From Steromphala cineraria (taxonomy: Eukaryota; Mollusca; Gastropoda; Trochida; Trochidae), in NCBI GenBank assembly GCA_916613615.1, contig OU744728.1, forward strand, positions 34,308,450-34,372,449: DNA of 64,000 bases, written 5' to 3'. A program made the translations under genes and the position numbers. Positions 21,701 through 63,592 of this stretch are shown here, piece after piece; positions within the stretch are counted from its first letter, which is position 1, and every line of letters starts with the position of its first letter. A model generated the notes under the pieces. It searched no databases, was not told where the DNA came from, and saw only the letters and a program-made list of their open reading frames with translations.

Positions 21701-24700
21701 CATAGATTTTGCCAAAATCAATTCATAACAAAGCAATTTCATCCTGGGTTAATGACATCACTTAGAAGAGAGCCTACAAGTGTTAATTCCTCAACGTTGA
21801 TGTGTGTGATGGCATTTGGTGTTTCAGACGTATGTATTCTTTTGTCGTTAACTGTTGATTTGGATGATAAATGAAATTTCACCCTTCTCTACTATATGAA
21901 CATTTGATGAATCAAGAACGAAACCTATGTCTGGCGGTATGTCTCGCAGAGAGATGTGGCGTAGAGCGAGGTTTAGAGACAGGAGACTTACTGGACTTCT
22001 GGAAGTAGAAGTTGCCCTGCTTCATCTCCATGATGCGCTCGTTGTTCTCCACCAGCGTGGCCACCTTCTCCGACAGCTGCAGGGCGAGTGACTGGAGGCG
22101 GCTCGGCTCCGTCCGGTGCATCACCACCGTCTGCGTCGGCTCATCCAACGACGCCTGTGGATAAGTAGGGCAACAGTTATAGAACAGATAAACCTATTCT
22201 TTCAGATTAAAACCGGCATGATTTTCAATCTTAAAAGGAAATGGTTACTATTTAAGTAAAGAGGAATGACTATCTTTTTGCTTAAAATGATTTGGCTTGA
22301 TAATAACTTTGGTGATTACAGTTTGTATTGCTTATTATAATATTAATCTTTGTTTTCTATAGATCTTCAAACTGTTCATTCATCATTTCAATGGACTGCA
22401 AAAAGGAATGGAAATTTAAAGTGTTGATAAGTGAATGTGCTTGTGTTTGAGAGTTCTAGTGTAAGTGAATGTGACAGAAAGTGTGCTAAAGTGTACAAGT
22501 GTGGATGTGTATCTGACCATGAGTTCCTCGTTGATGATCATCTTGCTGATGATTGAGTGCACCACGGCCTTGTTGAGCTCAAACATCTCTGCAAGTGTGT
22601 CCATGGAGAGGGAGTCGTAGACACTGCTGTAGGTGAAGAGGTATGTGCGGAGACTCTCCTCCTGGATCTTGGTTGTGATCATCTCCCGCACCTTGTCCTT
22701 GTTGTAGAACAGCTCCCACACCTAAACAGTACATGTACAACTTCATCACACTTGTACAGTACATGTACATCTTCATCACACCTAAACAGTACATGTACAC
22801 CATCATCACATCTAAACAGTACATGTACACCTTCATCACACCTAAACAGTACATGTACACCTTCATCACACCTAAACAGTACATGTAAACCTTCATCACA
22901 CCTAAACAGTACATGTACACCTTCATCACACCTAAACAGTACATGTAAACCTTCATCACACCTAAACAGTACATGTACACCTTCATCACACCTAAACAGT
23001 ACATGTACACCTTCATCACACCTAAACAGTACATGTACACCTTCATCACACCTAAACAGTACATGTACACCTTCATCACACTTGTACAGTACATGTACAC
23101 CTTCATCACACCATCACACTTCATTCATTCATTCATTCATTCATCTTCATCACACTTGTACAGTACATGTACACCTTCCTCTCACCTGCACAGCACATGT
23201 ACACCTTCATCACACCATCACACTTCATTCATTCATTCATTCATTCATCTTCATCACACTTGTACAGTACATGTACACCTTCACAGCACATGTACACCTT
23301 CATCACACTTGAACAGTACATGTACACCTTCATCACACTTGTACAGTACAATTACACCTTCATCACACTTGTACAGTACATGTACACCTTCATCACACTT
23401 GTACAGTACAATTAACCTATCGCCACCTGTCAATCAAATTTACTTTCCGACCAATCATAGAGCGTTATATATTCACTGCGCCATTGGCCGTGTTGCCGAC
23501 GCCATTTTGTACGTCAAACAATGAAACGTGTTTTACTTCCTTGTTTGATTTCCTCTGCATCCTAATTCAGGATATGCCTTATGAACTCGAAAAGTGTGCA
23601 GCTAGTTCCTTGAGTACCGTCTTGATACACAGACAAATATTATAACATGTGTCATCTTCGGAAGAGGTTGCGTAACATAGTGCAAATAGACGTTGAAACG
23701 GGAAAATTCGAAGCGGTGACGGACCAGGAATTAATTTCCTATTATTATACAACATATACATCTGAATAAAATATGAACAAAATATCCTAAGTATTTATAA
23801 TTGTTGCTGTTTATTCATTTTGGGGCATTTTGTAGATATATTTCCCCCTCTCTTATTTCGTGGTTTGAATGCATTGAAGGCATAAACAACTATAAAAGAC
23901 ACATTACCTAACTGTTTCAAGCAACTTTATTTGGTTATTTACCGTTTGATAACCTTCGTTGATATATTTATCAGACTTTTTGAATTATCAAATGGCATTT
24001 GTTTTAACATTTGCCCCGATACACATGAAAGAATCGCTAAAAATATAATATAAAATGATTAAATATGTCAATGAAACTTATGAATTATGCCATACACAAT
24101 GCACATTTACAAATTCTCATTTTTTATAACTTTTTATCAAGGATTTATATGAAATTTTTCAATAGAAATTAATCTGAATGCAACAATAAAGAACGTTAAG
24201 AATAAAAAAATACATTTTGTACTCATCATAATAATATTACTTTCAATAGTTTGATAATTTTTTTTTACATTTATGTTGTCTGTAACAAATGGACAAACAG
24301 TTTGAATATATATAACAAATCATGTCAACTCTTATGATATTATCAAATTAGAAATATCATAGATATATGCTAATTAATATTTTTGATAATATATCCATAT
24401 ACTATTTATTAATAATTTTACAAGACCTCAATTGTTTGTCAAGTTATTCACTTGAAATATAATAAATGTTTAACCATTATAATGCTTATTATTCAATAAG
24501 TGTTCAAATATGTTGAAAGTGTTTTATGTTCCACAACTATTACAAATAAAATTGCCTTGAAACAATATTCAAGTCAATACTGATGCTGACCATTGACATT
24601 TATAACTCTTAGAAATTGCAAACACAGCTAATCCCTCTCATTGACAAGTGTTCATATTTTCTAGGAGAAAAATCAATTATAAATTTGAAATTTTGAAATT

Positions 24701-27700
24701 GGCATTCTTACAATTGCTTTGGAAAGGTAGAGCCATGGGCCATTTTGTACAATTGATAAAAAAAGCTGGACCATTAAATTGTTGAGGCTTACTATTGTGA
24801 TATATGGGAAATTGCCAATTTGATATGCAGAACAATTATTAAAAGCCTGAAAATGGGTCATTGTAAAAACTGTCTTTCCCAATGCCTGATCATTCTTTTA
24901 GCAAAATATGAATTAACTAATATCTATTGACAAAGCAGAATAGTTCTACTTTTAGAGCAATTTTGATTTTATTTTTATGATTTATAGCTTACAAAGATAT
25001 AATATACTCCCTTACCAATTTCCAACAATTTTGACATCTGATCTCAATTCTTGGCATATATCCATGATCTTAAGTGAATAATTGATAAAAAGTCGATATA
25101 AAAGTAAATATTTGAGTTTAAAAAATTAAAATAAATTGTAAATAAAATTAAAGTAAGATTCAAAACTGAACATTATAAGAGGTATTTCGTCTATAGACGG
25201 GGCTGCTAATTCAATAACCCTTTAAGAATAATTTAACGCTTATGATTTTCAAACTCAATCAAGGCATTGATTGAAACATTGAAAAACACACAGGAAATTG
25301 TTGTATCCTTCGTAGTTTCTGAGAAAATTTGTCAGCTTTGAAAATACCTTTAACAGTCTTAAAACACGGAACATGTGCAATTACTCTATAAAAAATTTCA
25401 CTTGGGAAGCTTCAGATTTTCAACACCATCAAAGTATTTAAAGCCCCAAAGACTCTTCGTGGCGGGGAATACTAATGAAATTTTCAACACATTTCCCTTT
25501 ATCAATGATATCATTCACATTTTCCCCTTTTCAACCTTTTGGAAGACTGACCTTGGCATTCATCTTGTCGTTAATGATGAAGTTCTTGCAGGCCTTCCAG
25601 TCACCGGTCTTCATGGCCTTGGAGGCCGCCACCACATGCTCTCTCATGCTCTCAGGGGGGCCCGTCAGGTTCTGTCTCTCGCTCATCTTCAGCACGTGGT
25701 GGAAGTTCTTGCTGATCATCCTTCGTCTCACATCCAACTCATGAGCTATAGCAGGCCAGCATTGGGGTGTTAATCCACAGTTAATGAAGCCTTACTTTCT
25801 TAAATTGGTGGGAAATAAATATAACTATGTTATTCAACCAACATCGCTACCACTTTACGTTGGTTTTTAACTTATTTCTGTATACAACTCTCAATACTAT
25901 ATATTCTCAAAAGATGCAGCTTTTGGCTGTACTTAACACAATACAATCTAAATAAAAATTCCAGATTTTATTTCCATAAATGATATGGCGCAAATTTCAA
26001 ATGTATTTGAGGCTTTATCGTGTCTGATATCTTGAGGAAGACTACATAAACTATTGAGGATGAAGAGATGATGTCTCTTTGTAACAACGGATAGGTAATA
26101 CTCTTCATACCCTACAATTGACCTACAGATTTAAATAAAGATAGTAATAAGAGAACATGTATCACTTTCAGTTGTTCAACAAGATTCTTTAACTTAAAGA
26201 TAATAAACAATTTTTTTTTGTTATGTTACATAAAAGACATTACAGTTATTCCAAAGACAAATGTTTTAAATAAGAAAACGCTTCACATTATCATGAAAGG
26301 ATATTTAATTCACATATAAATATGTGACCTCTATGCACAGGAAGGCAGGATTTATGTTCCAACATCAGAACTTCAGAAAACGTTGTTATTTATGTATTTC
26401 CTTAACAGAAGCAAGTTATCTGTTTGTTATGGGAATGACCACCATGTGTAAACAGAACGGACAATTATATAGTATTTGCCAAAATGAATGTTGTGTGCCG
26501 ACTTTAATCAAACGACCGATGACCCTAAATGTGAGAAGTATGTGAAGTGTAGACTTCAATCAAACGACCGGTGACCCTGACTATGAGAAGTATGTGAAGT
26601 TCAGACTTCAATCAAACGACCGGTGACCCTGACTATGAGAAGTATGTGAAGTTCAGACTTCAATCAAAGGACCGGTGACCCTGACTATGAGAAGTATGTG
26701 AAGTTCAGACTTCAATCAAACGACCGGTGACCCTGACTCTGAGAAGTATGTGAAGTCCATGAGGAGCACTCACCAGCCATGTAAGGTATCTCGAGGAGCA
26801 TGGCAGAGACCAGGTAGACACACTCCAGCAGCTCCAGGTTGATGTGTTTGTGGTACGGCAGCAGACGCCGCTTCTCAATCTTCTCCTGCTCAGGGGACCG
26901 CTCGTGTTGTCTCTGGGGCAACAGGCCCTGCAATCAGCAACCTACACTCAACGTCTTCATCTTATCAAGGCAATCAGCAATCTACACTCAACGTCTTCAT
27001 CTTATCATAATTCCATTGACAAGTGGCAATAAATCAGCATTTAAGGTTGTATTCTGCACAAAGAAAATATTCTATAAAAGGAATACATTTTATCCTGGTT
27101 ATGTTTGACATTAAAAGATTGAACATAGTGGACCACGACAATATGAGGACATGAAGGGGAGGACCTGAGCAAGGAGTTCCTTGGCCCTGTTGCTACTCTG
27201 TATGTCCACCAGAGCATTGTGAGCGTCACGGATCATGCCTCGCCGGAACCCGCACAAACCGAGCTGCACCAGAGTACGGTTATACAGCAACTGTAACATA
27301 GACAACACAAAGATCTGTCTCGGAATCTGTTCAAGCATGTATTAAAAAAAACTGCATTCAATTCTGAGATAACGTATGTTATTTTTCTGGATGTTAGTCT
27401 TATTCACAGGACCTTGATGGGGTACAGACCTGTGTCCTGACGTCCGAGTGGTGGATGGTGTCCTGCAGGTGAGACATGAGCATGAGATCCCGGGCCTGGT
27501 ACCACCGGTCGTGCAGGGCGTGGTGGTAGATGTGGCACAGCATGGCGCGTGTACGTAGTCTGTCCGTGCTGTCCTTGGCGTAGATATACTTGCATAGTCT
27601 GTCCATCATCTGTTCTGGTGTCTCCTCGCTCTTTTCTCCGCTCTTTTCTCCGCTCTCCCCCGCCTTAACACCTTCCGTTGAGTTTCCGCCTTCCACGGCC

Positions 27701-30700
27701 TTGTAGTCAAACTGCATAAACATTCAACCATTGTAGAAAAACAAAGGAGACACCTATGACTCTTAGTATAAGTATTTCAAGTAAAATTGAACATCTTAAA
27801 CTAAATTGTAACAGAAAGGTAAATAAACTCAAATGCCAATGTCAATGTGGTACAGTCAGACCTCGATAATCCGAATGCCTCCGTTTTTCATCAAAAACTT
27901 TCAGATAGTGAACAAGTTGGAGTAACTCCCCTTTGAATCTACAGACAGACCAGAACGTATTTAGAATATCAAATGAGTTTATTTCATATACATTTGTACA
28001 ACTGGGATACATATATCAATAAAATAATAATAGCAAAAAAAAAATTCTGGACATGCACACAACATGCCAAACATTCAATTTACTCACTCAGGTTTGAAGA
28101 ACCTGCCAAGAACAGATTGGTTAGCCAGTGGCTTAAAGACACACGCATAGTGATCAAAGTTCCTTTCGTCCCTACACACTTAATGTATGTAATCATGGAG
28201 TCTATGTATGCTTTCATGCTATCACACAATTTACTACAATCACAAACTCAATGAACACAAAGTGAGACATTTTAATTTATTACAATCACAAACTACTGAC
28301 ACGCTCAACTCAAGTGTCAATCCACTGTCATTGAAGTTTATCGATCTGATCAGTGTGTTGATCACTTATCCGAACGGTTTTGATGAACAGCCGGATTAAT
28401 GTAGCAGAAATAGTTGTAATTTACTAATCGTTACAGCTAATCGGCGGATTCGGAGACTGAATGAACGGATTAATGAATCAACAATTATTGAGTTTATATA
28501 GAGATTAGTTTGGTTACAGCTTGCTACCGTTCGGATATCGCGAGGTTCGGATTATCGGACGACGGATTATCGAGGTCTGACTGTATATCAAGAGACTGAC
28601 AGAAGGACAGAAGGTCAGTGGTAAAAAGACAAAAACAATAGTAAGAGATATCTGGTGAGGGAGTTAAACAACAGACTGTATCAGTACCTGTTGCTAAAAC
28701 AATAGCTAGAGAAATCTGGTGAGGGAGTTAAACAACAGACTGAACAGATACCTGGTGAGGGAGTTAAACAACAGACTGTATTAGTACCTGTTGCTAAGAG
28801 CGTTTTCAGGATTATGTTGAAAATATGACAGATGGTTGATTTTCTAACAAATGTTCTGTTTTTGTTGACAACATGCTAAAGAATAATGCTCGAGCGATGA
28901 TAAAAGAGAGAAACATGTAGCAGAGGCTAACCTTGTAGTATGTCTGCTCAATACGGCGAAGGTAGACCCGACACATCTCATCTGTTGTGGCTCGCTTGTC
29001 CATGTACTTCTCCAGAAGTTTAGTCAGATCCGCCACTCGCTGCTCGTCCTTCAGTCTGAAACACAGATTGCATGGCTGAATGACTTGATCTTTACTTGAG
29101 ACATGCTCCGTTTCTCTACAATGTGGGGTCATTGGGATGATCTCAACTGTTAATGAAGGCTGCCTTGTACTCACCTCTCCACATACTCGGTGCTGTGAGC
29201 GTCACAGGCCTGCAGCATCTTGGTGAACTCCTCATCCATACGCTCCACCACGGTCAGGATACACCCCCGCACCCGGTACGGCGTAGACTGCACAAAATCA
29301 CAACAGTAAAGTCAGTACAAAGATCAGGACTTCACTAAACACAGTAATATGGTAAAGAGAGAAGTGTTTGGAAGAAGATGCACAGTGAGTCACCTCAAAG
29401 CTCTGTGTGTCCTCCGGGATGTGCTCCCCTATGATGATGTCTTCGTCGTTCATCAGCACCGTCAGCAGGTCCTGGATGTGATTCAGGCAGCTGAAACATC
29501 ACACATCACACTCAACATTCAAAATCACAACTCATCTCAAACATAGCAGACTTCTACATTAATCAATCTATTGTTTATAAGTGGTAAAAAAAGGAAAATT
29601 TGCCTCTGTATCTTAACATCGAAATATGCCTCATATCTTAATCAGGTGTGTTCATAAACTTTATCAGAAGACACAAAGGATACATTCTTATTCAATGAAA
29701 GATTTTCATGAATTTAGGCGAGAAGACAACACATATAAAGAATATCTACTACTAACAGAAGTAATCAGTGAACACTTACCTCTCCCAGACCTCAGAGCGC
29801 ATGCACGTGGCAATGTTTGGGTTGTAGTCGAAGATGGCAGCCACAATATTGAACATGATTTTGACCTGAATTCCGGGGCCAAGTCCAGCAGTGTCTGACA
29901 CTGAGAGTAACTCCTTGAAGAGTTCTATCTGCTCGGACCGGTCCGTGCTTTTCTTGCCTCGGGCTGACATGATCTCTGCCATCTTCTTCAGCACGGCCTC
30001 ATGGGTAATCTCCTGGTCCTTGCTGAACATCTTGGGCTTCTCCTGGTAATACACAGACACATGACGCTCGCTTGTCTCATAGCTGGGTGATTGGTGAACT
30101 CTTATATATAATTTATCTATTTGATAACTACTGATGACAACTAGATTAGCGTTTGCGGGATACCGCAAAAGCAGAGCAGCCCCGGAACTTTGGGTTTCGC
30201 CTTACCCTGTTCCGCCTTTTACAGGCCTCACCAAATTGGGAATTTTCTCGTGACCTTGACCTTTGACACTCAAGGTCACACAATCAATGAACACATTTCA
30301 TTGAGTATAACATTATTGTAATGAAATAAAGTGTTAAAAATACAATTAATCCATTTTCTCCATATATGTTGACCTTGCTGTGACCTTGACCTTCGACAGT
30401 TAGTACCCAAAACTTTTTGAAAATGTTGTACTTCTCAAGAGATAATATATACAAAATCTAAACTTCATAGCACAAAAACTTTTCAAGTTATTGTGTTTAC
30501 AAGGAATTGCAATAACTCATATCTCATGACCTTGACCTTTGACCTTCAAGGTGACACAATAATTGAACACTTTTTATTGAGTATAACAATCATGTATTGA
30601 TTAAAAGTGATCATAGTTAAAATTAAACATTTTCGCTAAACCATGCTTAAGTCATGACCTTGCTGTGACCTTGACCTTTGACAGATTGTAGCCGAAATCT

Positions 30701-33700
30701 TTTCAAATTTGTTTACTTTTCCAAGGATGATATATACCAAGTTAGAGCTTCATAGCACAAAAACTTTTCAAGTTACCGTGTTTACAAAGAATTTTGTGGT
30801 GATTTTATAACTCGTGACCTTGACCTTTGAACTTGAAAGTGAACATGTCATAATGATTCCCTGGAAGTATTAACATTTAGACATGTTCATGAGTTCTGAA
30901 AAGCTAAATGGGATAAAGTTATACCCCAATTTAGTGCATTTTGTAATAACTCATATCTCATGACCTTGACCTTTGACCTTCAAGGTCACACAATCATTGA
31001 ACACTTTTTTTTGAGTATAACAATCATGTATTGATTAAAAGTGTTCATAGTTAAAATAAAGCATTTTCGCTAAAACATGCTTACGTCATGACCTTGCTGT
31101 GACCTTGACCTTTGACGGATTGTAGCCAAAACCTTTTCAAATTTTTTTACTTTTCCAAGGATGATATATACCAAGTTAGAGCTTCATAGCACAAAAACTT
31201 TTCAAGTTATCGCGTTTACAAGGAATTCTTAGTCTAAATACATAGCTCGTGACCTTGACCTTTGACCTTGAAAGTGAACGTGTCAAAATCGTTCCCCCGA
31301 GGTATGAGGAGTAAGGTATGAATAAGAGTTCTGGAAAGCTTAGGGGAAAAAAGTTATAGCTAGTAGTATGAGTGCGGCGGCGGCGGCGGCGGCGGCGGCG
31401 ATGGAAACTTCACAAAAACTGATAGCAGCCCCGTCCTTAGACGGGGCTGCTAACTAACATTTTCCTTATACATTACCCTAATGAACAGACACAATATCAT
31501 TCTATGACGCTGTAGATGGAGAACTGACAAGTTTAGCATGAAGGTCATTACTAACCGTCATGAGAGGGACGCCGCCCTTGACCTCCTTCCATTCGCCCTC
31601 ATCATCCTCCTTGAACTTCTTCTTCAGCTCCTTCTCCTTCTTTCGTTCCTTCTTCTTCTCCTCCCGCCGCAGTCTCTCATCCTCCGTCGTCCTGCAAACA
31701 CATCTCCCTCAGCACCTGCTCCAACTTCCTACACCTCACACATTGGGCATTGTTCAATGCTACAGCACCCTTTCTCCATTGACTCTGAGGCTCATCAGGC
31801 TTTACATTTGATTTTGCTTTAGGGTGTGGCCCCTGTGGCTCTTATTAGGGGCCTCAGGGCCACCAAAGCTACAATTTATAATCCTCACTAGTCAAGGAGT
31901 CTGTACACCAAGTTTCAGCTTTCTAGGCTTTATGGTTCTGGAGAAGAAGATGAAAATAGATTTTAAGGATGTGGCCCCTGTGGCCCTTATTAGGGGCAAC
32001 AGGGCCACCAAAGCTACAATTTATAATCCTCACTAGTCAAGGAGTCTGTACACCAAGTTTCAGCTTTCTAGGCTTTATGGTTCTGGAGAAGAAGATGAAA
32101 ATAGATTTTAAGGATGTGGCCCCTGTGGCCCTTATAAGGGGCAACAGGGCCACCAAAGCTACAATTTATAATGCTTACTAGCCAAGGAGTCTATACAAAG
32201 TTTCAGCTTCCTAGGCCTTATGGTTCTGGAGAAAAAGTCGAAATTCCACAAAGTTGTACTGACGGACGGATGCCGGACACCATGCCATGCCATGCATGCC
32301 ATAAGCCCATTTGGCCTTACAGGACAGATGAGCTAAAAATGTGTTTAGATTTACTCAATCTTTAAAGAGTGCAAACTTGCTTCTTGGTACTTTCACAATG
32401 AGACTTAAGCACCTTGCCTTAATGCACCTTGAAACTGCTGTATGAATACACATAATATTTTTCTACTTATTTTAACATAAAACATCAGTATTAAAATGGT
32501 TACTAGATATCGGCATAAACATTGGTAAGTCTAGTGTGTATGGTAAGCACTAACTTCTTGAGGAAGTACTCTGCGGTGAGTTTCATGGTGTCGCGGCCCT
32601 CTTCACCCGAGTCAGAGTCGGTCTCCGTGTCGGAGCTGCCCCAGAACTCGCTGTCGTCGCTGTCTTCTTCGTCATCAGACATCTGCACACACACACACAA
32701 TGCTTACATGTACTCAACATGACACAACACAGAGAAAATCTACATAAATCAACCAAGAAAGTGGCATGTGTAATAGTCACCACGCATCTTTTATGCTAAA
32801 TACAATTGCAACTCACCTTCCTAGCAGGTTTGAGTGGACTGCCTGATGCGTCCTCGTCACCATCGTCATCATCATCATCATCAGCAGCAGCACGGTCCGA
32901 CACAGCCTCCTTGTGAACAGTCCCAGCCTCTTCTTCATCCCCAGCATCAGGGTTCTCTCGGTACTTGGTGACATCGTTGATGAAGTCGCGGAGGTACTTC
33001 TTGAGCTTCTGCCGGAGTGTGGTGAGCCCCTTAGCGTTGCTCTTGCTGATCTGTTTGCGCCAGTCCTTGTCCTCCCAGCACTACAGCATACAACACTCAA
33101 CATCACCCTCACGTTCATCACTGTTCTCAGTCACAGCACTAAAGCATACAACACTCAACATCACCCTCACGTTCATCACTGTTCTCAGCACTACAGCATA
33201 CAACACTCAACATCACCCTCACGTTCATCACTGTTCTCAGTCACAGCACTAAAGCATACAACACTCAACATCACCCTCACGTTCATCACTGTTCTCAGCA
33301 CTACAGCATACAACACTCAACATCACCCTCACGTTCATCACTGTTCTCAGCACTACAGCATACAACACTCAACATCACCCTCACGTTCATCACTGTTCTC
33401 AGCACTACAGCATACAACACTCAACATCGCCCTCACGTTCATCACTGTTCTAAGCACTACAGCATACAACACTCAACATCACCCTCACGTTCATCACTGT
33501 TCTCAGCACTACAGCATACAACACTCAACTTCGCCCTCACGTTCATCACTGTTCTCAGCACTACAGCATACAACACTCAACATCACCCTCACGTTCATCA
33601 CTGTTCTCAGCACTACAGCATACAACACTCAACATCACCCTCACGTTCATCACTGTTCTCAGCACTACAGCATACAACACTCAACATCACCCTCACGTTC

Positions 33701-38302: not shown

Positions 38303-39397
38303 CTGTAAAGATCAAATTAACATACAGATAAAAAGCTTTATGGAAACAAGACTGGGTAGACACATGACCTGTCAAAACTTCTTATCAAATATGAATAAAT
38401 TTCACACAAAAATATGTCCAACATTCATACCCACATGTCAATTTGAATTTCAATACCAAGTGTGATCAACCTTTGAAACATAGTTAAAAGTTTTGGACTA
38501 GACTCATGCCTGTTTTCCACAGCAATCCTTTTTTTTTGCCAATTTACAACAAAAAAACAGCCCATTTGTTTTCTTTGAAACATTTATTTCCTAACAGGAC
38601 TAGCCTAATTTTTTAAAACAAATTTGACTAAGAGTTTTGATGTTAGAAACAAAACCATCTTGAAAAAGAGCACCCAAAAACTGTTGCCACCCAGTATGGA
38701 GCATTACAGTTTATGAGGTGCTCAAATTTTTTAACATTTAATCAAAACAAAAATAAATATGAAAATAACACTTTATCGAGATACTGGATCCAAGGGTTCG
38801 ATGTATGTTATTGGAAACCATCGGTATATATTATTAACGATTGATTAGGAAACTTCTAATGCCATATGTTTTATCAAATGGGGAGAATTTCCCGGCATTT
38901 TAAGGATTGAAATTATCATATTTACATGGGAAATCGAATTATTTTACCTTGGTATTAACGTAAACAGTCACAAAATAACTTCAATATGCGGACTTGTAAG
39001 CAATGAAATGTCAAATTCATTCGTAAAATAACAAAATACGGTGGTCCTGGTAAACCTTCAGCAACATTCACCACATGGATTGAGGCCGTCACAAAACTTC
39101 GTGACGTAGTACACAAATCCAATACAGGAGATTTATCCGGGCCAAACCATGTGTTTTAAATGTCATAGCGACATGGTCATTTCTAAATCAATTTCATGGA
39201 ATGTCTTCTTTTCTTAGGTTTTAACATCAAATTCATACATTATAAAATGACGATGTTGATTAAAAAAACAAATAGTTAACAAATTTATAAAAAACAATAA
39301 TTTGCAATCATCGAATATTTTCCTCTTAATAAAGACTTCCTGTAAATACGGAAGTGAAATTCCACATGTGCTTTGCTGTTTTACAACACTTGAAGTC
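38303..39397. promoter_or_regulatory. Shared upstream region of EIF3C and FTSJ3
   Basis: 1.1 kb separate the two divergent start codons. On the minus strand an acceptor at 38303 implies a non-coding EIF3C exon; a good donor (CCAAG|GTAAAA) ending at 38948 is its likely partner, so EIF3C transcription probably starts near 39.0-39.2 kb. GTGACGTAG at 39,101 resembles a CRE. There is no TATA box at a sensible distance, which is typical of housekeeping promoters. Confidence 0.6.
39335..39355. promoter_or_regulatory. Dyad ETS/GABP-like site
   Basis: ACTTCC and GGAAGT lie as an inverted pair separated by nine bases, 43 nt upstream of the FTSJ3 ATG. Inverted ETS sites are common in bidirectional housekeeping promoters. 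Seen directly; function inferred. Confidence 0.5.
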
Positions 39398-39464
39398 ATG
39401 GGGAAGAAATCTAAAGTGGGAAAGGCTCGCAAAGATAAATTTTACAGATTAGCGAAAGAGACGG
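39398..39464 (+). CDS. FTSJ3: FTSJ3 exon 1 (start codon)
   Basis: [20 protein letters not shown], matching human [20 protein letters not shown]. The donor GTAAGT follows. It ends one base into the Gly23 codon. Confidence 0.96.
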
Positions 39465-54400: not shown

Positions 54401-57400
54401 TTACAAATCCATGTTTGAAATGTGTGTGTGTGTCTGTGCAGGAAGCTTAAGAAGACTCGGCGAGAGAAGATCAAGCTGAGGCACCGGATGGACATCAAGA
54501 TGGACATGCCTAATGACGCTCCTGACATCACTGATGATGTTGACATCTTCAACCTCAAAAAGATTAGGAGTAAGCAGGTACACATGTGTAAACTTATTCT
54601 CAATTCAAGTCCTCCTCAGTTGTAAACTCATTCCCTCCTCAATTTGACCTCGGTTGTCTCTAGGGTACACTACTTCCCTCCCCGATTTCACCTCAGTTGT
54701 CTCTAGGGTACTGTCATTCCCTCCTAGATTTCACCTCAGTTGTCTCTAGGGTACAGTCATTCCCTCCTCGATTTCACCTCAGTTGTCTTTAGGGTACACT
54801 ACTTCCCTCCTCGATTTCACCTCAGTTGTCTCTAGGGTACAGTCATTCCCTCCTCAATTTCACCTCAGTTGTCTCTAGGGTACACTACTTCCCTCCTCGA
54901 TTTCACCTCAGTTGTCTCTAGGGTACACTACTTCCCTCCTCGATTTCACCTCGGTTGTCTCTAGGGTACACTACTTCCCTCCTCGATTTCACCTCAGTTG
55001 TCTCTAGGGTACACTACTTCCCTCCTCGATTTCACCTCGGTTGTCTCTAGGGTACACTACTTCCCTCCTCGATTTCACCTCAGTTGTATCTAGGGTACAG
55101 TCATTCCCTCCTCGATTTCACCTCAGTTGTCTCTAGGGTACAGTCATTCCCTCCCCGATTTCACCTCAGTTGTCTCTAGGGTACTGTCATTCCCTCCTAG
55201 ATTTCACCTCAGTTGTCTCTAGGGTACAGTCATTCCCTCCTCGATTTCACCTCAGTTGTCTTTAGGGTACACTACTTCCCTCCTCGATTTCACCTCAGTT
55301 GTCTCTAGGGTACAGTCATTCCCTCCTCGATTTCACCTCAGTTGTCTCTAGGGTACAGTCATTCCCTCCCCGATTTCACCTCAGTTGTCTCTAGGGTACT
55401 GTCATTCCCTCCTAGATTTCACCTCAGTTGTCTCTAGGGTACAGTCATTCCCTCCTCGATTTCACCTCAGTTGTCTCTAGGGTACACTACTTCCCTCCTC
55501 GATTTCACCTCAGTTGTCTCTAGGGTACACTACTTCCCTCCTCGATTTCACCTCAGTTGTCTCTAGGGTACACTACTTCCCTCCTCGATTTCACCTCAGT
55601 TGTCTCTAGGGTACACTACTTCCCTCCTCGATTTCACCTCGGTTGTCTCTAGGGTACACTACTTCCCTCCTCGATTTCACCTCAGTTGTCTCTAGGGTAC
55701 ACTACTTCCCTCCTCGATTTCACCTCAGTTGTATCTAGGGTACAGTCATTCCCTCCTCGATTTCACCTCAGTTTTCCATAGGGTACAGTCATTGACTGTC
55801 ACTTCCTCCTAGATTTCACCTCAGTTGTCTCTAGGGTACAGTCATTGACTGTCACTTCCTCCTCGATTTCACCTCTGTTGTCTCTAGGTTACAGTCATTG
55901 ACTGTCACTTCCTCCACGATTTCACCCCAGTTGTCTCTAGGTTACACTCATTTCCTCATTCCAGTTGTCTCTGGGGCTTTGGCATCTTACTTCATCCTCA
56001 GTATTTTAAAGGAAATCATGAAAATGTTGAGATACATACACTTAATGAATCATGTCAAATCATTGTTATGTTGAGGTATGCATATTTATTACTCTCGGTT
56101 GAAGGATATTTCTGTTAGATAAGTGTGTGTGTGTGTGTGTTAAGGACATTGTGAAGTACTGTGTAAATGAAGGTTTGTGTGTGTTGAAGCACCTTGCGGA
56201 AGTGGACAGAGGAGGCCAGGAGCCAGAGGAGGAGGACGAGGAGGACCTTGAGTGGGAGGATGACCTCCACCTGTCCTCTGACAGACCACGCACGGTGTCC
56301 TACGATCGAGACACCCGCGACTACCTGCAGAGGGATGATGTGTCTGATGAAGACTTGGACTCTGATCCAGACATTGAGGAGGATTTGCAAACACACGTGG
56401 ACACACTTGAGTGAGTAATAAGATGCCCTGCATGCTTCTGTTAGAGTGACACAGAGTATCTTTCATAAAATTTTAATTGGTTTTGATAAGCAACAAAATT
56501 TCTCATATGCTGATTGAAGTTCATATCTAATCACTGGACTAGCAAATATAACCATTTTTGCATAATATCTCTAAAATGCTTGATTTTATGGAAAAAACAA
56601 TTATTTTTTTTAATACGTTTAATATTTGAAATTTTCATCCAATTAATCTACCTAGTAGTTACAATACCTAATAAACACTATCGAATCGAATGTATCTTCC
56701 TGTCAGCTTATGACAAGGTTTCAAAATTTACGCACGCCACTCAAGCCACATTGTCCGGTTTTCGATCAAAATCCCGACTTTGAATGGCCGTATTTTCGCT
56801 CAAATGTACTGATTGACCTTTAACTTGTTATTTTCAGAAACAGTTAGTGGTTCCCGATGTAATAACATCGATTTCAAAATTTGACATATGTGATCCTATC
56901 AACATACTCTGTGTCTCTTTAACATTGTGAGTACATTCTGGCTGAATATTCTTGTGTATTATTGATGTTTTACTAAAAGCCAGGTGATGTGAGTGCATTG
57001 AGAGCTCTCTACGGCAAAACTCTATTATAGCTGGTTGGGTGAGAGGACAAGGAGAAAACTCTGATCTATTTCCCTCACACAGTGTTCGGTCATTTGTTTG
57101 CGTATCTGAAACCACATTTCAAATATATTTCAAACACTGCCAAAATAGCTTAACATTCTTAAAAGGGTCAATTTAAGTCAGAGATTTGACTGTTCAGGGC
57201 AAATAAATAAACTTCAATGTCAATAAGCCAAGCTAGTTGGACTAGGCCATCTTGTTTGCTGAGGTAAGAGGCAGGGATAAGTGATGCAGTGGAAAATAAC
57301 TTTGTTGTTATAAGCGCTAAAAGTTTTGGGAAGATTTCTATTATAATATGAAATATAGCATTTATTATCTATACGGATGATGGAGCTAAATCTGCCTAAG

Positions 57401-57803
57401 CCAGAAACTGTCATTCTGTATCAATTCTAGAATACTATAGCGCATAATTGTTTTATAAGTTTGTACAAAGTCATAGATAGATAGATTGTCTTTATTTCCT
57501 CCAAGATTGAAGATTACATGAGTACATTCAAATAGTTAAATAGTTTAATATGCAGGTATATAAGTTTGTACAAAGTCATATGATCAGGGGCAAGACAAAA
57601 AAAATTAAACCTGTAGGTAAGCTTCAGTGTGAACCACAAGAGTTACTTCCCTTGCTTTAGCCGTCTCTACTAATGTATTTGGGTATATATAGTGCTATTC
57701 AGTTGCTTACTGTTGCAGAGAAGAGGAGGGAAACCCTCTTGTGGTCGACTACCAGCCAGAAAACATGAAGAGGCAGGATCGCGTCAACTCGTGGTTCAGT
57801 AAG
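39398..57803 (+). CDS. FTSJ3: FTSJ3 / Spb1-type pre-rRNA 2'-O-ribose methyltransferase (12 exons, C-terminus beyond window)
   Basis: Nucleolar SAM-dependent methyltransferase that modifies pre-rRNA ribose in large-subunit assembly (family Spb1/FTSJ3, RrmJ fold). Exons 39398-39464, 46753-46905, 46998-47077, 47181-47280, 48189-48501, 51310-51418, 53700-53800, 53948-54028, 54200-54307, 54442-54577, 56190-56410 and 57719-57803 join in phase to 1554 nt = 518 codons. The SAM-binding motif DLCAAPGGW is at about residues 52-60, and the catalytic tetrad expected for the fold is complete: K31, D117, K157 and E192. After the catalytic domain come the DUF3381-like helical region (exons 6-8), acidic coiled segments (exons 9-11) and a motif ending NSWFSK, equivalent to human NLWFSK. 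The Spb1 C-terminal domain (about 320 more residues in human) must lie past 64,000. Confidence 0.95.
39820..39880 (+). repeat. Short interstitial telomere-like TTAGGG stretch
   Basis: TTAGGGTTAGG, GGTTTAGGGTTAGGG and GTTAGGGTA occur within 60 bp, 360 bp into FTSJ3 intron 1. It is degenerate. Confidence 0.7.
40282..40458. mobile_element. Foldback MITE with about 57 bp inverted arms
   Basis: CCGCCGCATAGTCGAA and AAAAAAGTGCATCCATCACT on the left recur as the reverse complement on the right (to 40,458), separated by about 60 bp. In FTSJ3 intron 1. Confidence 0.85.
40556..41627 (+). mobile_element. Tandem-repeat element, family B, with nested MITE
   Basis: Starts ATACCACCGCTACGACGTAG, has (CCGT)n at 40,605, about four units of about 140 bp (CTATATGGTGCTGTGGTGCC) and closes with GTATGTGAGCCGCGCTCAC, a GC hairpin. 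A 164 bp MITE is inserted at 41,260. Confidence 0.85.
41260..41423. mobile_element. pogo/Tigger-type MITE nested in a tandem-repeat element
   Basis: CAGTCGAACCT...AGGTTCGACTG ends, with TA on both sides; 164 bp. It interrupts a repeat unit of the surrounding element at TATGGAAGTA, so it is the younger insertion. Confidence 0.85.
41690..42400 (+). repeat. Degenerate repeats with GTATCCAAGGGTTAAA core and 58 bp sub-array
   Basis: Scattered TATCCAAGGGTTAAA...GATTGTCG units at 41,690, 41,930, 41,980, 42,050 and 42,370, with a four-unit sub-array of about 58 bp (42,130-42,360) containing CATTCCGTACATGATAGATT. The core is the reverse complement of the 46.1 kb array. Confidence 0.75.
42703..44290 (+). 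mobile_element. Pearl-like element (family A), longest copy, 11 units
   Basis: Begins AGAGCCAGTGGCTCTG, has about 11 units of about 145 bp, (GGAC)n at 44,215 and closes with GGCCAGATGAGCTAAAAA. The two ends hold a 12 bp inverted pair, AGCTCATCAGGC and GCCAGATGAGCT, with one mismatch. Confidence 0.9.
44291..46127. other. FTSJ3 intron 1, otherwise unremarkable
   Basis: AT-rich intron. Apart from the 171 bp MITE, it holds scattered CGTAGA/TCTACG phrases (44,790-44,850 and 45,520-45,580) that also occur at 39,540; they may be ends of a decayed element. Confidence 0.45.
45102..45272. mobile_element. TA-flanked MITE, 171 bp
   Basis: Inverted ends CTGTATTCGAC / GTCGAATACAG with TA at each side; the interior has AAGCGCCC and GGGCGCTT inverted motifs. 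In FTSJ3 intron 1. Confidence 0.85.
46128..46424 (+). repeat. 29 bp minisatellite in FTSJ3 intron 1, about 10 copies
   Basis: Units contain CCCTTGGATACATTCAAGAT and CTTATTAAA, 330 nt upstream of exon 2. The same core occurs reverse-complemented near 41.9-42.4 kb. Confidence 0.95.
46753..46905 (+). CDS. FTSJ3: FTSJ3 exon 2 (SAM-binding motif)
   Basis: Encodes [19 protein letters not shown] and [20 protein letters not shown]. It holds catalytic Lys31 and SAM motif I. A 7.3 kb intron precedes it. Confidence 0.97.
46998..47077 (+). CDS. FTSJ3: FTSJ3 exon 3
   Basis: Encodes [18 protein letters not shown], then ITTEKCKQ, matching human VDLVPIKPLPNVVTLQQD. Confidence 0.95.
47181..47280 (+). CDS. 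FTSJ3: FTSJ3 exon 4 (catalytic Asp)
   Basis: Encodes [20 protein letters not shown] and [13 protein letters not shown]. Asp117 of the LNDGAPNVG motif is the second tetrad residue. Confidence 0.96.
47281..48188. other. FTSJ3 intron 4, nothing recognised
   Basis: Plain AT-rich intron with no repeat or RNA gene that I can support. Confidence 0.5.
48189..48501 (+). CDS. FTSJ3: FTSJ3 exon 5 (catalytic Lys and Glu)
   Basis: Encodes [39 protein letters not shown] and ends RPEKKKR. It holds Lys157 and Glu192 of the tetrad. GC-rich compared with the flanking introns. Confidence 0.97.
49008..50097 (-). mobile_element. Tandem-repeat element, family C, full copy
   Basis: Reverse orientation: TTGTCCCCTGCCGCAATGCG end, (CCGT)n at 49,053, six units of about 150-170 bp (TTACGCAGACACCAGTCACT, TTCAAATTT(A/G)GTCACAGCCT) and GGCAAACACTTGTTTT end. 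Units carry TGACCTTGACC-type motifs. In FTSJ3 intron 5. Confidence 0.85.
50364..50527. mobile_element. Palindromic foldback, 78 bp arms, core GTGGCGCAGCCAC
   Basis: Arms starting AGACTATTTCATTGTTTTTG and ending in the complement pair almost fully; the centre is GTGGC-GCA-GCCAC. Lies in FTSJ3 intron 5. Confidence 0.85.
51310..51418 (+). CDS. FTSJ3: FTSJ3 exon 6
   Basis: Encodes [19 protein letters not shown] and [10 protein letters not shown], aligned with human EGYAEGDLTLYHRT. The donor GTACGT follows, and a 41 bp tandem array begins about 80 nt downstream. Confidence 0.93.
51500..52482 (+). repeat. 41 bp minisatellite in FTSJ3 intron 6, about 24 copies
   Basis: Units contain CACATGTCAGTATGGCAGTG and TTTGTTATGTCTGTG. 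None of the three plus frames holds a stop, and the period is not a multiple of three, so all three stay open for more than 350 codons. These are not genes. Confidence 0.95.
52483..53022 (-). mobile_element. Pearl-like element (family A), minus orientation, FTSJ3 intron 6
   Basis: Reverse-complemented copy with about three units; its closing end (GGCCAGATGAGCT) is missing, and it starts directly where the 41 bp minisatellite stops. Confidence 0.85.
53700..53800 (+). CDS. FTSJ3: FTSJ3 exon 7
   Basis: Encodes [20 protein letters not shown] and [13 protein letters not shown], aligned with human IRVCCQDIRVLGRKEL. Confidence 0.93.
53948..54028 (+). CDS. FTSJ3: FTSJ3 exon 8
   Basis: Encodes [18 protein letters not shown], aligned with human SLLNWRTKLRRYV. 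Confidence 0.92.
54200..54307 (+). CDS. FTSJ3: FTSJ3 exon 9 (acidic)
   Basis: Encodes [20 protein letters not shown], an acidic coiled segment equivalent to the Glu-rich stretch in human FTSJ3. Confidence 0.9.
54442..54577 (+). CDS. FTSJ3: FTSJ3 exon 10
   Basis: Encodes [19 protein letters not shown], then [20 protein letters not shown], aligned with human RERVELKMDLPG. Confidence 0.92.
54612..55965 (+). repeat. 43 bp minisatellite in FTSJ3 intron 10, about 31 copies
   Basis: Units contain CCTCGATTTCACCTCAGTTG and TCTCTAGGGTACA, with two alternating sub-variants (CACTACTTCC and CAGTCATTCC). It begins about 35 nt after the exon 10 donor. Confidence 0.95.
56190..56410 (+). CDS. FTSJ3: FTSJ3 exon 11 (acidic)
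   Basis: Encodes [19 protein letters not shown] and [18 protein letters not shown], parallel to the human [20 protein letters not shown] region. The acceptor (TTGAAG) is weaker than the others, so the left edge could shift slightly. Confidence 0.85.
57470..57530 (-). mobile_element. Possible LINE 3' tail
   Basis: On the minus strand GGAGGAAATAAAGACAATCT followed by (ATCT)n resembles the end of non-LTR retrotransposons that finish in short tandem repeats. No reverse transcriptase is present. Confidence 0.35.
57719..57803 (+). CDS. FTSJ3: FTSJ3 exon 12, last exon in window
   Basis: Encodes [17 protein letters not shown], then RVNSWFSK, matching human NPLLVPL...NLWFSK. Its last 21 nt and donor are repeated about 100 times in the following 5.8 kb. 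Confidence 0.93.
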
Positions 57804-60800
57804 GTCAGTACATCGGACATCAGCTTTTCAACTCGTGGTTCAGTAAAGTCAGTCAGTCAGTACATCGGACATCAGCTGAATAGGGTCAACTCGTGGTTCA
57901 GTAAGTTCAGTCAGTCAGTACATAGGACATCAGCTGAATAAGGTTAACTCGTGGTTCAGTTAGGTCAGTCAGTCAGTACATCGGACATCAGCTGAATAGG
58001 GTCAACTCGTGGTTCAGTAAGTTCAGTCAGTCAGTACACAGGACATCAGCTGAATAAGGTTAACTCGTGGTTCAGTTAGGTCAGTCAGTCAGTACATCGG
58101 ACATCAGCTGAATAGGGTCAACTCATGGTTCAGTTAGGTCAGTCAGTCAGTACACCGGACATCAGCTGAATAGGGTCAACTCGTGGTTCAGTTAGGTCAG
58201 TCAGTCAGTACACAGGACATCAGCTGAATAGGGTCAACTCATGGTTCAGTATGGTCAGTCAGTCAGTACATCGGACATCAGCTGAATAGGGTCAACTCGT
58301 GGTTCAGTAAAGTCAGTCAGTCAGTACATCGGACATCAGCTGAATAGGGTCAACTCGTGGTTCAGTTAGGTCAGTCAGTCAGTACATCGGACATCAGCTG
58401 AATCAGTGGTTCAGTATGGTCAGTCAGTCAGTACATCGGACATCAGCTGAATCGGGTCAACTCGTGGTTCAGTAAGGTCAGTCAGTCAGTACACCGGACA
58501 TCAGCTGAATAGGGTCAACTCGTGGTTCAGTTAGGTCAGTCAGTCTGTACATCGGACATCAGCTGAATAGGGTCAACTCATGGTTCAGTTAGGTCAGTCA
58601 GTCAGTACATCGAACATCAGCTGAATAGGGTCAACTCGTGGTTCAGTAAGGTCAGTCAGTCAGTACATCGGACATCAGCTGAATCGGGTCAACTCATGGT
58701 TCAGTAAAGTCAGTCAGTCAGTACACAGGACATCAGCTGAATAGGGTCAACTCGTGGTTCAGTAAGGTCAGTCAGTCAGTACACAGGACATCAGCTGAAT
58801 CGGGTCAACTCGTGGTTCAGTAAGGTCAGTCAGTCAGTACATCGGACATCAGCTGAATAGGGTCAACTCGTGGTTCAGTAAGGTCAGTCAGTCAGTACAC
58901 CGGACATCAGCTGAATAGGGTCAACTCATGGTTCAGTTAGGTCAGTCAGTCAGTACATCGGACATCAGCTGAATAGGGTCAACTCGTGGTTCAGTAAGGT
59001 CAGTCAGTCAGTACATCGGACATCAGCTGAATAGGGTCAACTCATGGTTCAGTAAGGTCAGTCAGTCAGTACACAGGACATCAGCTGAATAGGGTCAACT
59101 CATGGTTCAGTTAGGTCAGTCAGTCAGTACATCGGACATCAGCTGAATCTGGTCAACTCGTGGTTCAGTAAGGTCAGTCAGTCAGTACATCGGACATCAG
59201 CTGAATAGGGTCAACTCGTGGTTCAGTAAGGTCAGTCAGTCAGTACACAGGACATCAGCTAAATAGGGTCAACTCATGGTTCAGTTAGGTCAGTCAGTCA
59301 GTACACCGGACATCAGCTGAATAGGGTCAACTCGTGGTTCAGTTAGGTCAGTCAGTCAGTACACAGGACATCAGCTGAATAGGGTCAACTCATGGTTCAG
59401 TATGGTCAGTCAGTCAGTACATCGGACATCAGCTGAATAGGGTCAACTCGTGGTTCAGTAAGGTCAGTACATCGGACATCAGCTTTTCAACTCGTGGTTC
59501 AGTAAAGTCAGTCAGTCAGTACATCGGACATCAGCTGAATAGGGTCAACTCGTGGTTCAGTAAGTTCAGTCAGTCAGTACATAGGACATCAGCTGAATAA
59601 GGTTAACTCGTGGTTCAGTTAGGTCAGTCAGTCAGTACATCGGACATCAGCTGAATAGGGTCAACTCGTGGTTCAGTAAGTTCAGTCAGTCAGTACACAG
59701 GACATCAGCTGAATAAGGTTAACTCGTGGTTCAGTTAGGTCAGTCAGTCAGTACATCGGACATCAGCTGAATAGGGTCAACTCATGGTTCAGTTAGGTCA
59801 GTCAGTCAGTACACCGGACATCAGCTGAATAGGGTCAACTCGTGGTTCAGTTAGGTCAGTCAGTCAGTACACAGGACATCAGCTGAATAGGGTCAACTCA
59901 TGGTTCAGTATGGTCAGTCAGTCAGTACATCGGACATCAGCTGAATCGGGTCAACTCGTGGTTCAGTAAAGTCAGTCAGTCAGTACACAGGACATCAGCT
60001 GAATAGGGTCAACTCGTGGTTCAGTAAGGTCAGTCAGTCAGTACACAGGACATCAGCTGAATCGGGTCAACTCGTGGTTCAGTAAGGTCAGTCAGTCAGT
60101 ACATCGGACATCAGCTGAATAGGGTCAACTCGTGGTTCAGTAAGGTCAGTCAGTCAGTACACCGGACATCAGCTGAATAGGGTCAACTCATGGTTCAGTT
60201 AGGTCAGTCAGTCAGTACATCGGACATCAGCTGAATAGGGTCAACTCGTGGTTCAGTAAGGTCAGTCAGTCAGTACATCGGACATCAGCTGAATAGGGTC
60301 AACTCATGGTTCAGTAAGGTCAGTCAGTCAGTACACAGGACATCAGCTGAATAGGGTCAACTCATGGTTCAGTTAGGTCAGTCAGTCAGTACATCGGACA
60401 TCAGCTGAATCTGGTCAACTCGTGGTTCAGTAAGGTCAGTCAGTCAGTACATCGGACATCAGCTGAATAGGGTCAACTCGTGGTTCAGTAAGGTCAGTCA
60501 GTCAGTACACAGGACATCAGCTAAATAGGGTCAACTCATGGTTCAGTTAGGTCAGTCAGTCAGTACACCGGACATCAGCTGAATAGGGTCAACTCGTGGT
60601 TCAGTTAGGTCAGTCAGTCAGTACACAGGACATCAGCTGAATAGGGTCAACTCATGGTTCAGTATGGTCAGTCAGTCAGTACATCGGACATCAGCTGAAT
60701 AGGGTCAACTCGTGGTTCAGTAAGGTCAGTACATCGGACATCAGCTTTTCAACTCGTGGTTCAGTAAAGTCAGTCAGTCAGTACATCGGACATCAGCTGA

Positions 60801-63592
60801 ATAGGGTCAACTCGTGGTTCAGTAAGTTCAGTCAGTCAGTACATAGGACATCAGCTGAATAAGGTTAACTCGTGGTTCAGTTAGGTCAGTCAGTCAGTAC
60901 ATCGGACATCAGCTGAATAGGGTCAACTCGTGGTTCAGTAAGTTCAGTCAGTCAGTACACAGGACATCAGCTGAATAAGGTTAACTCGTGGTTCAGTTAG
61001 GTCAGTCAGTCAGTACATCGGACATCAGCTGAATAGGGTCAACTCATGGTTCAGTTAGGTCAGTCAGTCAGTACACCGGACATCAGCTGAATAGGGTCAA
61101 CTCGTGGTTCAGTTAGGTCAGTCAGTCAGTACACAGGACATCAGCTGAATAGGGTCAACTCATGGTTCAGTATGGTCAGTCAGTCAGTACATCGGACATC
61201 AGCTGAATCGGGTCAACTCGTGGTTCAGTAAAGTCAGTCAGTCAGTACATCGGACATCAGCTGAATAGGGTCAACTCGTGGTTCAGTTAGGTCAGTCAGT
61301 CAGTACATCGGACATCAGCTGAATCAGTGGTTCAGTATGGTCAGTCAGTCAGTACATCGGACATCAGCTGAATCGGGTCAACTCGTGGTTCAGTAAGGTC
61401 AGTCAGTCTGTACATCAGACATCAGCTGAATAGGGTCAACTTGTGGTTCAGTAAGGTCAGTCAGTCAGTACACCGGACATCAGCTGAATAGGGTCAACTC
61501 GTGGTTCAGTTAGGTCAGTCAGTCTGTACATCGGACATCAGCTGAATAGGGTCAACTCATGGTTCAGTTAGGTCAGTCAGTCAGTACATCGAACATCAGC
61601 TGAATAGGGTCAACTCGTGGTTCAGTAAGGTCAGTCAGTCAGTACATCGGACATCAGCTGAATCGGGTCAACTCATGGTTCAGTAAAGTCAGTCAGTCAG
61701 TACACAGGACATCAGCTGAATAGGGTCAACTCGTGGTTCAGTAAGGTCAGTCAGTCAGTACACAGGACATCAGCTGAATCGGGTCAACTCGTGGTTCAGT
61801 AAGGTCAGTCAGTACATCGGACATCAGCTGAATCTGGTCAACTCGTGGTTCAGTAAGGTCAGTCAGTCAGTACATCGGACATCAGCTGAATAGGGTCAAC
61901 TCGTGGTTCAGTAAGGTCAGTCAGTCAGTACACCGGACATCAGCTGAATAGGGTCAACTCGTGGTTCAGTAAGGTCAGTCAGTCAGTACATCGGACATCA
62001 GCTGAATAGGGTCAACTCATGGTTCAGTAAGGTCAGTCAGTCAGTACACAGGACATCAGCTGAATAGGGTCAACTCATGGTTCAGTTAGGTCAGTCAGTC
62101 AGTACATCGGACATCAGCTGAATCTGGTCAACTCGTGGTTCAGTAAGGTCAGTCAGTCAGTACATCGGACATCAGCTGAATCGGGTCAACTCGTGGTTCA
62201 GTAAGGTCAGTCAGTCAGTACATCGGACATCAGCTGAATAGGGTCAACTCGTGGTTCAGTAAGGTCAGTCAGTCAGTACACCGGACATCAGCTAAATAGG
62301 GTCAACTCATGGTTCAGTTAGGTCAGTCAGTCAGTACACCGGACATCAGCTGAATAGGGTCAACTCGTGGTTCAGTTAGGTCAGTCAGTCAGTACACAGG
62401 ACATCAGCTGAATAGGGTCAACTCATGGTTCAGTATGGTCAGTCAGTCAGTACATCGGACATCAGCTGAATAGGGTCAACTCGTGGTTCAGTAAAGTCAG
62501 TCAGTCAGTACATCGGACATCAGCTGAATAGGGTCAACTCGTGGTTCAGTTAGGTCAGTCAGTCAGTACATCGGACATCAGCTGAATCAGTGGTTCAGTA
62601 TGGTCAGTCAGTCAGTACATCGGACATCAGCTGAATCGGGTCAACTCGTGGTTCAGTAAGGTCAGTCAGTCTGTACATCAGACATCAGCTGAATAGGGTC
62701 AACTTGTGGTTCAGTAAGGTCAGTCAGTCAGTACACCGGACATCAGCTGAATAGGGTCAACTCGTGGTTCAGTTAGGTCAGTCAGTCTGTACATAGGACA
62801 TCAGCTGAATAGGGTCAACTCATGGTTCAGTTAGGTCAGTCAGTCAGTACATCGAACATCAGCTGAATAGGGTCAACTCGTGGTTCAGTAAGGTCAGTCA
62901 GTCAGTACACCGGACATCAGCTGAATAGGGTCAACTCATGGTTCAGTTAGGTCAGTCAGTCAGTACATCAGACATCAGCTGAATAGGGTCAACTCGTGGT
63001 TCAGTAAGGTCAGTCAGTCAGTACATCGGACATCAGCTGAATCGGGTCAACTCATGGTTCAGTAAAGTCAGTCAGTCAGTACACAGGACATCAGCTGAAT
63101 AGGGTCAACTCGTGGTTCAGTAAGGTCAGTCAGTCAGTACACAGGACATCAGCTGAATCGGGTCAACTCGTGGTTCAGTAAGGTCAGTCAGTCAGTACAC
63201 AGGACATCAGCTGAATCGGGTCAACTCGTGGTTCAGTAAGGTCAGTCAGTCAGTACATCGGACATCAGCTGAATCTGGTCAACTCGTGGTTCAGTAAGGT
63301 CAGTCAGTCAGTACACAGGACATCAGCTGAATAGGGTCAACTCGTGGTTCAGTAAGGTCAGTCAGTCAGTACACCGGACATCAGCTGAATAGGGTCAACT
63401 CATGGTTCAGTTAGGTCAGTCAGTCAGTACATCGGACATCAGCTGAATAGGGTCAACTCGTGGTTCAGTAAGGTCAGTCAGTCAGTACATCGGACATCAG
63501 CTGAATAGGGTCAACTCGTGGTTCAGTGAGGTCAGTCAGTCAGTACATCAGACATCAGCTGAATCAGTGGTTCAGTATGGACAGTCAGCTGC
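57783..63592 (+). repeat. 58 bp minisatellite carrying the FTSJ3 exon 12 donor, about 100 copies
   Basis: Units of about 58 bp repeat GTCAACTCGTGGTTCAGTAA(G), the last 21 nt of exon 12, followed by the donor GTCAGT and intron sequence ending ATCAGCTGAATAG. Many units have TTAG, TATG or TAAA before the GT, and some lose it (TAAGTT). It fills the rest of intron 12 inside the window. Confidence 0.97.

Follow-up and report, generated by a model that had tools for sequence, protein, structure and literature searches.

Minisatellites at exon-intron junctions of EIF3C and FTSJ3 in a 64,000-nucleotide window of the gastropod Steromphala cineraria

Minisatellites made of exon-intron boundaries have been described in amphioxus under the name of mirages, in the Adh3 gene and in the globin genes BflGb6 and BflGb9 (Canestro 2002 as cited in PMC3087553). 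In the excerpted text of PMC3087553, the mirage units are 10–160 bp long and span an acceptor or a donor junction, many, not all, of the copies retain the AG or GT, and reverse transcription PCR (RT-PCR) suggests, according to the authors, that splicing is regular. The lancelet gene PGBD5 carries tandem repeats at its exons 3 and 4 that adjoin splice sites or run across them (PMC3902484, in excerpt), and in human, new introns may arise from variable tandem repeats located at exon-intron boundaries (PMC2812944, in excerpt). Here, we analysed 64,000 nt of the gastropod Steromphala cineraria (GenBank assembly GCA_916613615.1, contig OU744728.1, positions 34,308,450 to 34,372,449 of the forward strand), hereafter the window, and found that tandem arrays in two neighbouring genes, EIF3C and FTSJ3, lie at splice junctions several-fold more often than random placement would put them there.

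These arrays appear to be of the same kind as the amphioxus mirages, and what they add is density, size, and a placement test. Six or seven of them lie in two adjacent genes, with up to about 101 units in one array, and their placement was compared with chance; in the amphioxus literature found, as far as its excerpts go, mirages are treated case by case. The splicing of amphioxus mirages was checked by RT-PCR (PMC3087553, in excerpt), whereas that of the present introns is predicted from sequence. The PGBD5 repeats resemble the arrays at EIF3C exons 18 and 14 in abutting or overlapping splice sites but differ, in the excerpt of PMC3902484, in having, depending on the assembly, 2–7 copies with units of 60 and 108 bp, in being imperfect, and in holding one predicted exon inside the repeat. 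Among the papers listed by literature searches that included molluscs or bivalves, no title or first line announced such arrays in a mollusc, although some may be in print. Zhuo, in 2007, reportedly traced human introns to tandem arrays. The Rogers model likewise explains intron gain through tandem duplication (as cited in PMC3087553). As they are cited, both resemble our case in that tandem duplication copies splice signals within a gene. They differ in that the duplication creates a new intron there, whereas the present arrays sit in introns that also hold non-repeat sequence. Since this non-repeat sequence lies beyond the arrays, the introns are probably pre-existing, and growth of an existing intron is a simpler reading than intron gain.

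We detected arrays with Tandem Repeats Finder (TRF) and then adjusted their ends by hand from alignments of the unit to the junction (Table 1). The initial annotation of this DNA had named four minisatellites, each with a splice junction in its unit. All four were present in the TRF results, and their junctions were placed by GT-AG gene models of EIF3C and FTSJ3. Every modelled intron of both genes is GT-AG, and the phases are consistent. The predicted EIF3C protein matched human eIF3c with 1114 bits over residues 1–881, and the predicted FTSJ3 protein matched human FTSJ3 with 485 bits over residues 1–518. The exon numbers given earlier (EIF3C 16, 5, and 2; FTSJ3 12) agree with these models. 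At the end of FTSJ3 exon 12, NSWFSK aligns with human NLWFSK. The least certain exon model is that of EIF3C exon 18, the tail of which is poorly conserved.

The units of the four arrays include bases of the adjoining exon. The 30-bp unit holds GTGTG of EIF3C exon 16 (5 bases), the 52-bp unit holds TGCTG of exon 5 (5 bases, or 8 with one mismatch), the 42-bp unit holds 27 bases of exon 2 with a 5-nt indel and one mismatch, and the 58-bp unit holds 21 bases at the donor of FTSJ3 exon 12. The alignment thus reproduced the exon content reported before, namely 5 to about 27 bases at the acceptors and 21 at the donor. The exon bases in the units encode residues conserved in human (VW in EIF3C exon 16, LS and D in exon 2, N and WFSK in FTSJ3 exon 12); therefore, the exon is the older part and the array was copied from it. 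TRF alone placed the 52-bp array at 33134–33817, the 42-bp array at 37317–37678, and the 58-bp array at 57828–63564. The first extends to 33076 if a 6-nt insertion is allowed, and the other two extend to 37303 and 57783 with indels; the far ends of the 42-bp (37690) and 58-bp (63580) arrays are approximate and were set by eye. The functional copy equals the consensus in the 52-bp array; in the 58-bp and 42-bp arrays, it lacks stretches of 8 nt and 5 nt of the unit, respectively. The 58-bp array also appears to have a higher-order period of 1262 bp, with an autocorrelation of 0.52 at lag 1262 and of 0.51 at 745 and 629, and rows of low score recur 1262 apart, at 58708, 59970, and 61232. Because of this period, part of the array may have grown by block duplication.

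Table 1. Junction-linked arrays, neighbouring arrays, and gene models in the window
Feature	Position	Strand	Units or size	Relation to junctions
30-bp array	22717..23410	minus	~21 units	EIF3C exon 16 acceptor + 5 exon bases; junction 22721/22722
52-bp array	33076..33817	minus	14 aligned units	EIF3C exon 5 acceptor + 5 exon bases; junction 33080/33081
42-bp array	37303..37690	minus	9 units	EIF3C exon 2 acceptor + 27 exon bases; junction 37329/37330
58-bp array	57783..63580	plus	~101 units	FTSJ3 exon 12 donor + last 21 exon bases; junction 57803/57804
46-bp array	17376..20174	minus	61 units	ends 1 nt short of EIF3C exon 18 acceptor junction 17374/17375
40-bp duplication	26930..27007	minus	2 copies	ends 2 nt short of EIF3C exon 14 acceptor junction 26927/26928
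52-bp array	26500..26759	minus	5 units	end 14 nt from EIF3C exon 14 donor junction 26773/26774
43-bp array	54631..55952	plus	~29 units	53 nt downstream of FTSJ3 exon 10 donor
EIF3C	17268..38294	minus	18 coding exons, 904 aa	GT-AG introns, consistent phase
FTSJ3	39398..57803	plus	coding exons 1-12, gene extends beyond window	GT-AG introns, consistent phase

The observation of junction-linked arrays is confirmed and extends beyond the first four. Units that span a junction were found in those four arrays (5–27 exon bases) and, in a loose sense, in two others that contain no exon bases but abut a junction at −1 and −2 nt, the 46-bp array and the 40-bp duplication. The 46-bp unit continues with TGTTGTATG, the exon-side copy has TGTTGTAG, and the inner copies lack the junction AG. 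The two copies of the 40-bp duplication show 97% TRF matches, and the inner one lacks the junction AG. The 5-unit 52-bp array near the donor of EIF3C exon 14 has no junction-spanning unit, as alignment to the junction detected no exon or donor bases in it. For three arrays, junction origin was assessed with a crude base-pair shuffle, 500 shuffles each. It was not supported for this 52-bp array, with 494 of 500 shuffles equally good, or for a 41-bp array at 51498–52483, with 42 of 500. The latter starts 79 nt past the donor of FTSJ3 exon 6 and has a 263-bp higher-order unit in three copies, 97% alike. At FTSJ3 exon 10, the stretch between the donor and the 43-bp array, from the last exon base onward (G/GTACAC), aligns to the 43-bp unit as a degenerate copy, and only 4 of 500 shuffles aligned equally well. 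This is suggestive of an eighth junction-seeded array.

We compared the position of the arrays with chance. We tested the 12 arrays in the gene span that had periods of 20–100 and TRF scores of 100 or more against 57 junctions, of which 28 are acceptors and 29 are donors. Omitted were TRF rows beyond these thresholds, five mobile-element-like blocks, and everything before 17268, where there is no gene model; a 10-bp array at 20774–20870 is in none of the placement tests. In the random placements, up to 30 exon bases were allowed, and array length was capped at 60 or 400 bases in the main test with 12 or 17 arrays and at 400 in the others. An array edge fell within −20 to +30 nt of a junction in 7 of the 12 arrays; 0.65–0.81 were expected, and the 4000 random placements gave at most 4. 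None of 4000 reached the observed number with limits of −2 to +30 (6/12; 0.42–0.52 expected) or of −60 to +30 (8/12; 1.12–1.32 expected). When the five mobile-element-like blocks were included, the counts were 7 of 17 for −20 to +30 (0.89–1.17 expected; 0/4000) and 8 of 17 for −60 to +30 (1.54–1.90 expected; 1/4000). Removal of EIF3C exon 18 left 6 of 11 arrays (0/4000), and the further addition of four low-score rows gave 6 of 15 (1/4000). Among the eight arrays outside the initial annotation, three lay within −20 to +30 (0.43 expected; 34/4000), two within −2 to +30 (156/4000), and four within −60 to +30 (22/4000). Arrays therefore stand at junctions several-fold above random placement in this window, and within it the earlier claim that they do so too frequently for chance is supported. 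A preference for acceptors over donors was not supported (5/28 vs. 2/29, P = 0.25).

We examined the inner copies of the arrays as splice sites. Scores were derived from a matrix of 23 acceptors and 28 donors of EIF3C and FTSJ3, array sites excluded. Other AG sites scored at least as high as the functional acceptor in 26 of 47 cases in the 30-bp region, 11 of 73 in the 52-bp region, and 8 of 22 in the 42-bp region, and in none of 232 and none of 8 in the 46-bp and 40-bp regions. In the 58-bp region, 42 of 771 GT sites did so, the functional one counted. Inner sites thus frequently equal or exceed the functional site in score, and local strength leaves the choice of site unexplained in four arrays. 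The exact 9-mer of the functional donor occurs 41 times, itself included, in the approximately 101 units of the 58-bp array (under half), and the approximately 21 units of the 30-bp array contain 11 TTTAG acceptors, one of which is the functional site. The AG is retained in 9/9 aligned units of the 42-bp array and in 14/14 of the 52-bp array. On these exact counts, the earlier description of 9 to about 100 working splice signals per intron claims too much, and the inner copies of the 46-bp and 40-bp arrays, with no junction AG, limit it further.

The initial annotation had also taken the outermost copy as the functional one. The coding phase agrees with the outermost site, and the outermost copy is presumably the splice site in use. 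Use of an inner acceptor would introduce a stop codon in 10/10 candidates at EIF3C exon 16 and in 5/8 at exon 2; at exon 5, 14 of the 15 candidates were listed, the functional one not among them, and 14/14 gave a stop. The 58-bp array has 95 donor-like sites, including the functional one, of which 93 give a stop at codon 74 and 2 are open. We also compared the deviation from the consensus in the splice core with that in the rest of the unit, a comparison in which copies within one array are not independent. The core deviated more in the 58-bp (0.090 vs. 0.042), 52-bp (0.024 vs. 0.009), and 30-bp (0.230 vs. 0.046) arrays, which gives no support in these three for selection on the inner splice signals. 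In the 42-bp array, the core deviation was 0 vs. 0.046 for the rest of the unit, the acceptor core being identical in 9/9 units, and selection on the splice signals is possible there. Because the cores deviate more in three of the four arrays, the inner sites give little indication of selection for splicing. If the arrays served splicing, with the repeated sites tuning splice choice or buffering the loss of the functional site, the many high-scoring inner sites in four arrays, the unchanged acceptor core of the 42-bp array, and three inner acceptors of EIF3C exon 2 whose use would lengthen the protein in frame by 14, 28, or 42 residues would all be accounted for. We give this explanation very little credence, given the more variable cores of the other three arrays and the inner copies of the 46-bp and 40-bp arrays, which have no junction AG.

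We propose instead, with a probability of about 0.66, that these are mirage-type minisatellites, in which a duplication touching a junction expands toward the intron, the outermost copy is kept by coding selection, and junctions are preferred sites. First, as the array ends suggest, a segment of approximately 30–60 bp that spans or touches the junction would duplicate in tandem at its own site. The array would then expand inside the intron, partly via larger blocks (approximately 1262 bp in the 58-bp array), a step that can be seen in outline. The reading frame suggests that the copy beside the intact exon would be retained as the working splice site because most other junction-equivalent copies add a stop codon. 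The inner copies would be harmless given exon definition and nonsense-mediated decay. Finally, on the statistics of this window, junctions would be preferred places of array birth or survival. Four duplication joints, read by eye, are legible, with shared TGA at EIF3C exon 2, TG at exon 5, GTA at exon 18, and a CT filler at exon 14; those at EIF3C exon 16 and FTSJ3 exon 12 are not clearly legible. Shared sequences of 2–3 bp and a 2-nt filler fit end joining or template switching. With its 97% matches, the two-copy duplication next to the acceptor of EIF3C exon 14 suggests that junction placement is present at birth, prior to expansion. Hairpin-prone units were not supported as a cause, as no unit among the 9 tested had a clear folding advantage over its shuffles (z −0.71 to 1.13).

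Several points weigh against this proposal. The limits of −20 to +30 nt were chosen after the arrays had been seen, and the placement counts are therefore a guide and no clean probabilities. The result is less extreme when only arrays with exon bases are considered, since 4/12 was reached by 2 or 3 of 4000 placements and 4/17 by 12 or 16 of 4000. Small tandem repeats show no excess at junctions, with 1 of 27 intronic repeats within −20 to +30 and 1.95 expected; this set excludes rows that lie within larger arrays or are exonic over more than half of their length, and the repeats were placed with their own lengths, up to half exonic. All counts come from one window, picked because it was found striking, and from the sequence of one individual. 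A slippage hotspot due to short direct repeats was not supported in this window. Exact 5-mers recurring at 25–65 nt across the site averaged 2.14 at array-free acceptors (n = 22) and 1.12 at array-free donors (n = 24), as against 4.04 at random intron sites (n = 600), and 6-mers and 7-mers were likewise scarcer at junctions; the comparison is imperfectly matched, as junction surroundings are half exon and the random sites are intronic. A scanning model of acceptor choice would favour the first AG, and with high-scoring inner copies present correct splicing is an assumption. The three inner copies nearest EIF3C exon 2 are in frame (+42, +84, and +126 nt). These copies, at 37330–37455, have CTTAG where the other copies have CTGAG, and because of this replacement their frame is open. 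The single window, the limits chosen afterwards, and the less extreme count for arrays with exon bases also speak for chance clustering in a repeat-rich window that was singled out by an attentive reader, together with the fact that two of the seven cases have just 2 and 5 copies. Chance is nevertheless highly unlikely, as 0/4000 placements matched the −20 to +30 count with either 12 or 17 arrays, 1/4000 matched the count for −60 to +30 with 17, and 34/4000 matched that of the eight held-out arrays.

Tolerance is another explanation of the placement bias. If duplications arose uniformly everywhere, those crossing a junction might survive since the outer copy still splices. Inner copies would do no harm if ignored or decayed, most of them bring stops, and in two junction arrays the unit ends before the AG, so that inner copies are no competitors there. 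However, tolerance should be unable to raise the junction rate above that of the unconstrained intron interior. The observed count is approximately 9–11 times the expectation for 12 arrays and 6–8 times with the five blocks added, and small repeats are not enriched at junctions. We therefore consider tolerance improbable as the only cause. Between seeding and tolerance, both of which the initial annotation had offered, seeding fits better given this rate, and the nature of the seed is unproven.

Survival bias differs from our proposal in the cause of the bias and is compatible with its first three steps. According to this explanation, intronic arrays disappear through deletion or because mobile elements overwrite them, while splice-anchored arrays are protected and accumulate. 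The likelihoods that we assign to the two overlap, as both accept the same anatomy. Survival bias gains from the fact that junction sequence is not deletable and from the five mobile-element-like repeat blocks in non-coding parts of the gene span. It predicts that junction arrays are older, but their TRF matches (91–97% vs. 81–96% in the other five, P = 0.07) make them, if anything, younger, although concerted evolution blurs such age comparisons based on divergence; the 97% likeness of the two-copy duplication at EIF3C exon 14 argues in the same direction. Overall, we regard survival bias as unlikely. A birth bias, that is, a mutational hotspot at junctions, is our preferred cause of the placement bias and is unproven. 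A wider claim, that splice junctions are a general hotspot for 30–60 bp tandem duplication in some animal genomes, acting via transcription, splicing, or chromatin rather than DNA repeats, and that this is a main source of the intronic minisatellites and intron growth of those genomes, is conceivable though doubtful. If splice junctions are the starting points of over half of the minisatellites in a genomic stretch, the junctions themselves may be mutation-prone. If true, this would have consequences for intron length, for the evolution of splice sites, and for unstable loci in ordinary housekeeping genes.

Other repeats were observed in the window. Two blocks approximately 16 kb apart, at 14254–15304 and 30246–31296, share near-identical consensus units, periods of 285 and 434 bp, and GACCTTGACCTTTGAC motifs, and look like copies of one mobile element; the second lies within EIF3C intron 7. 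Tandem units of 145 bp with GTGGCCCCTGTGGCCC motifs occur at 31821–32237 and 42837–44195, and related sequence, recognised by eye, lies in reverse orientation at about 52540–52990. These 145-bp units probably belong to a dispersed element with an internal tandem array.

The two genes are arranged head to head. Because their start codons are approximately 1.1 kb apart in this arrangement, the interval between them (38295–39397) suggests a shared two-way promoter region. Within EIF3C, the donor of exon 13 at 27165 is unusual (CAG/GTCCTC, score 6.7), and coding exon 12 holds an in-frame 12-bp tandem repeat at 27627–27656.

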